From Halopelagius longus (GTDB lineage Archaea; Halobacteriota; Halobacteria; Halobacteriales; Haloferacaceae), in assembly GCF_900100875.1 (NCBI RefSeq), contig NZ_FNKQ01000004.1:186001-250000 (forward strand): a stretch of 64,000 nucleotides of DNA, in the 5' to 3' direction. The notes below the pieces were generated by a model that was given only the letters and a program-made list of their open reading frames with translations, ran no database searches and was not told the origin of the DNA. The stretch's first letter is position 1, and each line of letters opens with the position of its first letter. Both the position numbers and the translations under genes were made by a program. This document shows positions 43,568 through 46,364 of the stretch, one piece after another.

Positions 43568-44359
43568 TCAGGTGAGGGGTGTCGCCTCGCGCTTGTACTC
43601 GGCGAACGCCGCCGCGGCCCACGAGACGGCGTCGTCGTCGTCCGTCTCCACGAGAGCGCGCGGTTCGTACTCCTCGTGGGCGACGAACTGCGCCGTGTCG
43701 TCGATGAGCGCGACGCCGTAGCGAACCGGTCCCTCGTGGACGTACACCCGGTATCTTCCGGTCGCCGCCATCTCGTCGTACAGCGACGCGTACCGCGATT
43801 TCGTCCGGAGCGTCTCCGCCACCTCGGGTTCGACCACGAGTTCCGCCCGCGCCCCGTGGCCGACGATTCGGTCGCGGAGCGTCTCCTGTGCGTGAAGGCC
43901 GGTGAACGGCACCGCCATCCGGCACTCGTCCATCTCCTTCAGCGCGCGGACGTGGCGGTTGCGCACCGCGTACGGGTCCGGCGGGTCCGCGCAGAGGAGG
44001 TCCGCGTCCGCGAGGCACCGAACGTCCGCGCCGAACTCCTCTCGGGGGACGAACCGCAGAAACGGGGACAGTCGCTCCGTGATTTCGACCACCTCGCGAA
44101 ACTCCTCGAACGACCGCGCCACGGCGTCGCCGGCCGTCGTAATTCTGTACGTCCGTCCCGACCGCCGGACCCACCCCGCGGCGGCGAGCGTGTCGAGATT
44201 TCGCTGGAGCGTCGTCCGAGAGACGTCGACGCACTCCGCGAGTTCGCGCCTGCGGAGCTCCCGACGACGCATCAACTCCACGAGTAGCGTCGCCCGCGCC
44301 GTCGAACGCGCCAGAAGCGCGATGCGCTCCACCGCGGCGTCCGCCTCGGTGTCACTCAC
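43568..44359 (-). CDS. Winged-helix regulator with DUF1724-like (methanogen regulator) domain
   Basis: 263 residues. A winged helix at residues ~20-75 (RRRELAECVDVSRTTLQRNLDTLAAAGWV pattern) is followed by an alpha/beta domain with FLRFVPREEFGADVRCLADADL, as in archaeal transcription factors such as HVO_A0114. The ligand is unknown. It is convergent with the IMPase gene and stands alone. Confidence 0.85.
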   Translation of the reverse strand: MSDTEADAAVERIALLARSTARATLLVELMRRRELRRRELAECVDVSRTTLQRNLDTLAAAGWVRRSGRTYRITTAGDAVARSFEEFREVVEITERLSPFLRFVPREEFGADVRCLADADLLCADPPDPYAVRNRHVRALKEMDECRMAVPFTGLHAQETLRDRIVGHGARAELVVEPEVAETLRTKSRYASLYDEMAATGRYRVYVHEGPVRYGVALIDDTAQFVAHEEYEPRALVETDDDDAVSWAAAAFAEYKREATPLT

Positions 44360-44506: not shown

Positions 44507-45340
44507 TCAGAAGCTGTTGTTCCGGACGGTCGAGGGAGAGACTATCCGCTCGTCGAGGTACACTTCCACGTTGTACGAGGAATCGCCCGGGTCGAGGCTC
44601 AACTCCTCGACCGATCCGCAGAAGAGGTAGCGGTCGCCGAGGTATGTCAGCCCGCCAGCGTCCTCGGGGAGCGGTCCCGTCTCGTCGGCGGCGGTGAGAG
44701 TCCCGTCGTCGTTTTCGACCGGTTCGTCGTCGTCGTCGGCGGCGAAGTTCCCGCCCACGGTGTCGGGGTTCAACGTACCCTCCATCTGGATGGTGTACTC
44801 GGTGGGACCGTTGGCCGCGATGGTGAAGAGGTTCAACTCTCCCTCCTCGGTCTGCCACTCCGGTACGTCGGAGGGTGCCACCGGGTCGCCGTTGTAGTAG
44901 ACGTTCACGTCGTAGCCGGAGTCTTCCACGTCGAACTGCATGTACCCGAACGTTCGGTATCGGTCGCCGAGGTACGTCGTCCCGCCGGCGTCCTCGGGTA
45001 ACGGCCCCGTGACGTCCGTGATGGCCGCGTTGTACGGACCCGGCCCGTCGCCGGGTTCGTCGTCCTCGTCGGCGGAGAAGTCGCCCCCCACCGTGTCGGC
45101 CTCCAACGTCCCGTCGACGGTGAACTCGTACTCCACCGGCCCGTTGGCGGTGACCATCAACGTGTGGACGTCGTCCGATCCGTCAGATCCCCCCGCCGCG
45201 ACGCTTCCGACCGGGAGACTCGCCGCCCCCAGTCCGACGACGGCCGCCTTCATCGCCGTCCGACGGTCGAACGCCGCGCCCCTCGTCCCCAACTCGGGGA
45301 GACCGTCCGCTCTCCTCGATTGCTTGTCTTTGTCTGTCAT
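44507..45340 (-). CDS. Tat-exported protein with two repeated domains (paralogue of the next gene)
   Basis: 277 residues. Tat signal (FDRRTAMKAAVVGLG, ending around VAAGGS). The mature part has two copies of a ~105-residue unit, each opening 'ANGPxEYxxxxxGTLxxDTVGGxF(S/A)AD(E/D)DDEP', then TGPLPEDAGG-TYLGDRY, and closing with a strand such as VNVYYNGDPV or VEVYLDERIV. The acidic AD-DDDEP loop looks suited to ion binding. No catalytic motif is seen. It is a haloarchaeal surface or secreted protein of unknown role. ATG at 45340. Confidence 0.8.
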   Translation of the reverse strand: MTDKDKQSRRADGLPELGTRGAAFDRRTAMKAAVVGLGAASLPVGSVAAGGSDGSDDVHTLMVTANGPVEYEFTVDGTLEADTVGGDFSADEDDEPGDGPGPYNAAITDVTGPLPEDAGGTTYLGDRYRTFGYMQFDVEDSGYDVNVYYNGDPVAPSDVPEWQTEEGELNLFTIAANGPTEYTIQMEGTLNPDTVGGNFAADDDDEPVENDDGTLTAADETGPLPEDAGGLTYLGDRYLFCGSVEELSLDPGDSSYNVEVYLDERIVSPSTVRNNSF

Positions 45341-45515
45341 ACCACTTACTGATGACAACGCCGAGACAGATAACTGCTCCCGGCGTTCGTCGTGCACGGC
45401 GTGCACGGTGACCGCGGGGTGAACACCGTCGAAGGCGTGCGAGCGCGCGACTTCCCTCTCGCGGTGACGAAAAAGGAAAAATATTCTCCTGCGGCGCGGG
45501 CGCGTCTCGGCCGGG

Positions 45516-46364
45516 TCAGAATCGGTTCTCGCGGACGACCTCCGGGTCGACCGGCTTCTCGTCGAGGAAGACGTACGTCTCGTGGGACGAGTCGCTCAGT
45601 TGGAGGTCCAACGTCTCGACGGACCCCGAGAACAGGTACCGGTCCCCGAGCACGGTCGTCGCGCCGGCATCCGCCGGAAGCGGTCCCGTCGTGCCCGCGG
45701 CGGTGAACGTCCCGTCGTCGTTCTCCGTCGGCGCGTCGTCGTCGTCCGCCGAGAAGTTCCCGCCCTTCCGGTCGGGCGTCATCTCCGGTTCGACCTGCAG
45801 TTCGTACGACGTGGGGCCGTTCGCCGCTATCGTCACCGTGTGCAGGCTGGGGTCCGTCAACTGCATGCGGTTCAGTTCCTCTGGTGTTACGAGCGTCTCG
45901 TCGATGTAGACGTTCGCCTCGTAGTCGGGGTGCGCATCGAGGGTGAGGTGGACGTAGTAATCGACGAGAAACCGGTCGCCGTGGAACGCTGTCCCGCCCG
46001 CGTTCTCCAACGTCGGCCCCGTCTCGTCTTTCACCGTGTAGACGCTGGGACTGTTCTCGACGTAGTGCGGTTCGTCGTCCTCGTCGGCGGAGAAGTCGCC
46101 GTGCTCCGTGTCCGCCTCCATCGTCCCGTCGACGGTGAACTCGTACTCCAACGGCCCGTTCGCCGTTATCATCAGCGAGTGCAGGTCGTCGGACTGGGCG
46201 TCCGTCCGCGACGACGCCGCGGCGGTTCCCCACGGAAGCGTCACCGCGCCGAGTCCGGCGACGGCCGTCTTTATCGCCGTCCGCCGGTCGAACACGACTC
46301 CCGACGAGTCGCCGTGCGGGTTCGCGCTGTCCTCCGCAGCCGTCCGAAGGTCGTCGCGTGTCAT
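45516..46364 (-). CDS. Tat-exported protein with two repeated domains (paralogue)
   Basis: 282 residues. Tat signal FDRRTAIKTAVAGLG. Two copies of the same unit as in the gene at 44507: first copy ITANGPLEYEFTVDGTMEAD with FSADEDDEP and TGPTLENAGGTAF; second copy IAANGPTSYELQVEPEM with FSADDDDAP and TGPLPADAGATTVLGDRY. It ends VDPEVVRENRF, close to VSPSTVRNNSF in the neighbour. It lies 175 bases before the paralogue on the same strand, a clear tandem duplication. A TATA-like gttatatg lies about 30 bases upstream of the ATG. Confidence 0.8.
   Translation of the reverse strand: MTRDDLRTAAEDSANPHGDSSGVVFDRRTAIKTAVAGLGAVTLPWGTAAASSRTDAQSDDLHSLMITANGPLEYEFTVDGTMEADTEHGDFSADEDDEPHYVENSPSVYTVKDETGPTLENAGGTAFHGDRFLVDYYVHLTLDAHPDYEANVYIDETLVTPEELNRMQLTDPSLHTVTIAANGPTSYELQVEPEMTPDRKGGNFSADDDDAPTENDDGTFTAAGTTGPLPADAGATTVLGDRYLFSGSVETLDLQLSDSSHETYVFLDEKPVDPEVVRENRF

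Follow-up and report, generated by a model that had tools for sequence, protein, structure and literature searches.

Tandem secreted-type proteins of two modules in Halopelagius longus belong to an uncatalogued, widespread haloarchaeal domain family

Carbohydrate-binding modules (CBMs) in general offer a likeness for the proteins described here, as the unit from which these are built is a small predicted beta domain that is repeated and, in relatives, fused with beta-helix or lyase domains. Unlike CBMs, however, the unit has no Pfam CBM match and no clear structural match, and the likeness is one of kind, not of family. Other C-terminal modules (CBM6/35/36, DNRLRE, and F5/8) are reported on some haloarchaeal PL8 lyases (PMC13260240). 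Two sets of haloarchaeal proteins resemble the present ones in sequence: (i) the repeats appended to beta-helix and polysaccharide lyase 14 (PL14) proteins (e.g., L016, L035, and L054), which share the motifs [DE]xxD and GD[RA][YF] as well as the closing strands; and (ii) two Halobaculum proteins (NZ_CP126157.1 and NZ_CP119991.1), in which two ANGP-type units are accompanied by a third, degenerate one. The units described here differ from the former in adding ANGP near strand 1, D24, R68, and a segment at positions 55-65 (numbered from the first residue of gene 2 unit 2), and their proteins are free-standing. In contrast to the latter, they lack an N-terminal vWA fusion, which was identified by Pfam on one Halobaculum protein and by annotation on both. 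Among the papers and excerpts returned by a literature search, none was recognized as dealing with the unit's domain, which says nothing of the literature at large.

Two tandem genes and their four units

The window, i.e., the whole 64,000-nucleotide stretch of H. longus DNA that was analysed, contains two tandem genes for secreted-type proteins of two modules each; these belong to an uncatalogued, widespread haloarchaeal domain family and are not a new kind of system. A preliminary description of this DNA had listed two genes, each with a Tat signal and two units of about 105 residues; both genes are present at the stated positions, on the minus strand, each with a twin-arginine motif and two such units (Table 1). 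It had further claimed that the units are four copies of one domain, to be given up if the units failed to align or matched a named domain. All six unit pairs align strongly, with 41-62% identity and z-scores of 17-35 over shuffles; alignment scores range from 174.5 to 345, vs. a shuffle maximum of 38 (300 shuffles per pair). Between the two genes, identity is 62% for the second units and 50% for the first; between the units of one gene, it is 41% in gene 1 and 52% in gene 2. The shared markers that had been named were confirmed in part by eye. ANGP-x-x-Y occurs in all four units, as does the acidic loop ADxDDxP (ADEDDEP, ADDDDAP, ADEDDEP, and ADDDDEP), whereas TGPLPEDAGG is exact in only two of the four, the others reading TGPTLENAGG and TGPLPADAGA. 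The four units hold one tryptophan in all, located in a linker. A profile scan of the window's open reading frames longer than 60 residues, up to an E-value of 10, returned nothing beyond the four units.

Table 1. Window positions of the two genes, their putative signals, and their units.
Feature	Position	Strand	Content	Basis
Gene 1 (P0001)	45516..46364	(-)	282 aa; twin-arginine segment and two units	
Gene 1 putative twin-arginine signal region	46215..46364	(-)	FDRRTAIKTAVAGLG; RR at 27	By eye and hydrophobic peak
Gene 1 unit 1	45843..46181	(-)	Residues 62-174, including linker	Unit alignment
Gene 1 unit 2	45519..45842	(-)	Residues 175-282	Unit alignment
Gene 2 (P0002)	44507..45340	(-)	277 aa; twin-arginine segment and two units	
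Gene 2 putative twin-arginine signal region	45194..45340	(-)	FDRRTAMKAAVVGLG; RR at 26	By eye and hydrophobic peak
Gene 2 unit 1	44834..45166	(-)	Residues 59-169, including linker	Unit alignment
Gene 2 unit 2	44510..44833	(-)	Residues 170-277; modelled with AlphaFold2	Unit alignment

Both proteins begin with a twin-arginine segment that reads RRTAxKxAVxGLG by eye. Since this segment comes after the ATG at 45340, that codon and not the GTG at 45406 was taken, as a judgement call, as the start of gene 2. Past residue 60, neither protein has a hydrophobic stretch (the best 19-residue Kyte-Doolittle means are 0.51 in P0001 and 0.41 in P0002), and no cysteine lies close to the signal, as P0001 has none at all and P0002 only C241. 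For these reasons, a membrane segment or a lipobox is not predicted in either protein. A PGF-type sorting end is also absent from both sequences, so that sequence inspection and hydropathy give none of the three features by which a cell-surface anchor would be recognized (lipobox cysteine, transmembrane segment, PGF-type end). Both proteins are probably exported folded via the Tat pathway, and, judging from sequence, we infer that they are soluble, with no visible anchor or catalytic domain. Thus, of the "duplicated surface module" that had been suggested, the duplicated module of secreted type stands, but the assignment to the surface is not supported, given the lack of a membrane segment and of a lipobox cysteine. 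Six of ten free-standing two-unit proteins carry VRxNxF at the extreme C-terminus.

No named family scores above its cut-off with the unit. In Pfam, the sole match is PF25292 (E-value 0.12; 12.2 bits vs. a cut-off of 26.8), in NCBIfam the match reaches 16.1 bits vs. cut-offs of 331 and 110, and in PHROGs there is no match up to an E-value of 0.1; a known named family was therefore rejected, in these libraries, as the identity of the unit. A sequence match in the PDB (7on6, E-value 0.0044) was set aside, as it spans residues 29-62, mainly signal and linker, and no stretch passes alone. A viral origin was likewise rejected: nothing was found in viral contigs, phages, or PHROGs, and the best E-value against viral structure models was 0.21. 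Modelling of a single unit, a check proposed in the preliminary description, gave a confident all-beta prediction of eight strands and two short helices for gene 2 unit 2 (AlphaFold2, 13 rows; pLDDT 90.5, pTM 0.81). The model of both units together is moderate (pLDDT 77.2, pTM 0.64), and the arrangement of the units was left uninterpreted. Searched with Foldseek against the PDB, the unit model returned nothing below an E-value of 0.13, and its best VIA Z of 4.5 falls inside the range that the tool itself states to be uninformative. Cellulosomal CBMs are among the many tied weak rows, and so are pilins and adhesins. The unit is thus confidently predicted to be all-beta, with no relative found by fold, though a new fold is not claimed; the predicted strands suggest that it is probably a beta-sandwich.

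The wider haloarchaeal family and its partner domains

By sequence profile, the window unit falls as a subfamily within a broader haloarchaeal domain, itself uncatalogued, and is not private to the two genes. A profile of 24 ANGP units recovers the divergent repeats of L016 (1.3e-23), L017 (7.2e-21), and L012 (3.9e-8), these being full-sequence E-values in a small search space of 20 loci. Conversely, a profile of five divergent units alone recovers P0001 (1.6e-15) and P0002 (2.3e-12), both at Z 5000, and lists no decoy among 102 that were shuffled or reversed, although for the P0002 first unit alone the E-value is just 0.017. Since the profiles match both ways, the window unit belongs to the wider domain. 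The search for the unit in other archaea, as had been suggested, found relatives by combined profile in at least 145 of 391 genomes of the class and at least 55 of 86 genera; both are lower bounds, with 12 candidates scored per genome. In a draw from the phylum, 20 of 294 genomes match, all of which are listed as the own genome, the same taxonomic family, or the same order. Most relatives are borne by larger proteins, in which between one and four copies are clear.

An alignment of 94 distinct units (24 with ANGP and 70 without), limited to those of at least about 85 model positions and a domain E-value no higher than 1e-4, defines what is common to the domain. Y13 is present in 94/94 units, D or E at position 36 in 94/94, D67 in 93/94, G53 and G66 in 92/94 each, and G73 in 90/94; an acid (D or E) stands at position 33 in 84/94. 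The two-way profile match, together with the near-invariant Y13, D/E36, G53, G66, and D67, is what places a unit in the wider family, and the near-invariant Y13, D36, G53, G66, D67, and G73 may well be structural. To these the ANGP group adds ANGP itself, D24 (23/24), R68 (24/24), and segment 55-65. This segment, the PLPEDAGG region, is missing from 67 of the 70 non-ANGP units, and two of the three exceptions come from L027, a protein placed with the window subfamily by the unit tree. In the non-ANGP units, aspartate does not rank among the four commonest residues at position 24. Two further acidic positions are biased by subfamily: position 43 is acidic in 13/24 ANGP units vs. 62/70 others, and position 94 in 23/24 vs. 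43/70.

The partners of the domain were identified by a Pfam scan of 29 of 38 larger proteins, the other nine being L008, L036, L037, L038, L041, L043, L044, L045, and L048; L051:3-1040 (acetyltransferase, 13.9-bit match) was scanned and excluded from the 29. Some of the scanned proteins are mutually related and 12 stretches were hand-picked from a class-wide listing. The count of right-handed beta-helices, 17 of 29 (12 above the Pfam cut-off and 5 below it at an E-value of 0.001 or less), is a raw count. Other partners are polysaccharide lyase 14 (one protein), PQQ_2 propellers (two), and vWA (two). Seven of the 29 have nothing accepted above the cut-off; some frames came from stretches that had been cut, and truncation may account for such a result. 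Among the larger proteins, matches to Ntox25 and VASt were rejected as weak and under the Pfam cut-off, and ECSIT_C in L050, a weaker beta-helix protein, was taken as a putative composition artefact, although it slightly exceeds its cut-off (30.0 vs. 29.6 bits, over acidic repeats). The order of unit and partner varies, the units being ahead of the beta-helix in L032 and behind it in L054. Three of four plasmid proteins with a divergent unit are recorded as "polysaccharide lyase". A beta-helix by itself is no proof of enzyme activity. L046 and L057 are related to each other (42% over 405 residues), and the part that precedes their units has no Pfam match.

Among the proteins inspected, the ANGP subfamily has vWA and PQQ-type propellers as its only partners. 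The protein was matched in 10 of 170 genomes of the taxonomic family, and the subfamily is present in seven of these, the own genome (G000), G013, G015, G028, G029, G035, and G063. Reading of the frames gave ten free-standing two-unit proteins in five genomes (own, 3; G028, 2; G029, 1; G035, 3; G063, 1), whereas in G013 and G015 a vWA domain precedes two ANGP units. The third such protein of the own genome (G000:C1:422374-423174) is 50% identical; of two genome-contig scans, the first found no relative and the second three loci. The last three of these ten genomes gave weak matches (9.6e-6, 2.1e-5, and 2.5e-4), in long frames where the clear divergent repeats number four, three, and two. In the class draw, close units are found behind PQQ-type propellers in G367 (ANGP) and G373 (SNGP).

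Candidate functions and the surrounding genes

Of the functions considered, non-catalytic binding is judged the likeliest, only slightly ahead of a structural role at the surface. By analogy, the pair is tentatively proposed to be a secreted, non-catalytic accessory or binding module, perhaps CBM-like, that is used free-standing. This reading is preferred because units sit before or after beta-helix partners, as accessory binding modules do. Each unit would fold independently as an all-beta domain, and the free-standing pair, exported folded through the Tat pathway, would be outside the cell without a catalytic domain. Two tandem modules could then provide avidity for a polymer, either an extracellular polysaccharide or the glycosylated envelope, and the pair would act like a free-standing carbohydrate-binding module, with the ligand and the binding role both hypothetical. 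A bolder form of this proposal, which appears doubtful, is that the domain family, haloarchaea-only as seen here and absent from the libraries searched, is the clade's substitute for bacterial CBMs, with the ANGP subfamily as its free-standing, secreted, bivalent, lectin-like form that has no enzyme.

The unit could instead be a structural spacer or a module of the surface, Ig-like or pilin-like and free of ligand, that gives secreted proteins acidic, salt-stable length, the free pair being a component of the envelope. Somewhat less probable than accessory binding, this would explain why the best-conserved positions hold turn glycines, a tyrosine, and acids, which maintenance of a fold predicts; pilins and adhesins among the weak fold rows, the diversity of partners (vWA included), and the placement of units on either side of a partner are also in its favor. 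A two-unit protein that has neither partner nor visible anchor would, however, be an odd spacer, and the retention and multiplication of copies, to three such genes in the own genome, also counts against this reading. The acids themselves point to another, rather improbable role, in which the acidic loop (positions 33 and 36) and D67 form a putative site for calcium or another divalent cation that folds the unit or bridges acidic polymers. The conservation of these three positions in the 94 distinct units agrees with such a site, and further acidic positions (24, 43, and 94) are kept in one subfamily only. On the other hand, no calcium-binding family was matched in Pfam or NCBIfam, and high acidity is normal for haloarchaeal proteins. 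On sequence, the conserved acids at 33, 36, and 67 fit a cation site and would also fit a structural role.

The genes around the pair raise one more candidate. The sugar-utilisation region at window positions 30022-53815 includes, by Pfam, a solute-binding protein, GH43 with a ricin-type lectin, GH127, GH42, and GH3, and by eye an ABC ATPase, a permease, and an IclR-like regulator. With these neighbours, and with a third paralogue that adjoins a pectinesterase, the pair might be a dedicated part of an arabinan/hemicellulose-type locus, though this is the least probable of the readings. Six of the seven subfamily genomes are without pectinesterase and six without GH127, the own genome being the exception in each case; the frequencies in the taxonomic family are 22/170 and 13/170, respectively, so that 1/7 is at chance level for both, and seven genomes make a weak test. 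A role specific to arabinan or pectin was accordingly left as unsupported. In the other subfamily genomes, copies lie beside unrelated genes. Because there is no enrichment of pectinesterase or GH127 and copies elsewhere have unrelated neighbours, the sugar-hydrolase context of the window is probably incidental.

A conserved operon was also rejected, as the script-called genes of window positions 30001-62000 include no neighbour common to the other two-unit loci compared. Four other loci do have neighbours in common (Haloferax profundi L063, G028, G029, and G063), and in each of these genomes tryptophan biosynthesis genes, recognized by eye, adjoin one copy. Two single-gene resemblances were taken as putative chance: one gene (59% over 219 residues) is common to the third paralogue's locus (L067) and a G028 copy (L069), and a pdhA-like gene (45% over 351) to the Halobaculum litoreum vWA locus and the window. 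The gene immediately downstream of the pair, on its strand at window positions 43571-44359, encodes a regulator whose N-terminal domain is HVO_A0261 and whose middle domain is FilR1. At L067:7333-9507, the third two-unit paralogue is followed immediately, on the same strand, by the pectinesterase gene. The own genome has three strong GH127 matches; among the other 169 genomes of the taxonomic family, 12 show a match of any strength, and several of these are weak.

The free-standing pair is a small protein suited to tests of the ligand and of salt or metal dependence. The domain is often joined to beta-helix and lyase-type proteins yet is unmatched by Pfam, NCBIfam, and PHROGs models as searched, and its definition, at the spread given above among sampled haloarchaeal genomes, would annotate non-catalytic parts of many haloarchaeal proteins.

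The order of duplications

The unit tree places the ten first units of the free-standing proteins in one group (support 82/93), which also takes in one second unit, that of L009, on the longest branch. Seven second units form another group (84/89), and the second units of both window genes are unplaced. Neither the first-unit nor the second-unit label forms a single clean side of the tree, each requiring two changes. Duplication of the unit before copying of the gene is favoured by this tree, though not proven. Nor does it show the window genes to be more closely related to each other than to any other copy. By the same tree, L027 acquired its two units independently. Tandem copies also occur in G035, where two of the three free-standing two-unit genes are adjacent, and the G029 copy (L005, G029:C1:1369813-1370577) is cut early, relative to its relatives, by an in-frame TGA.
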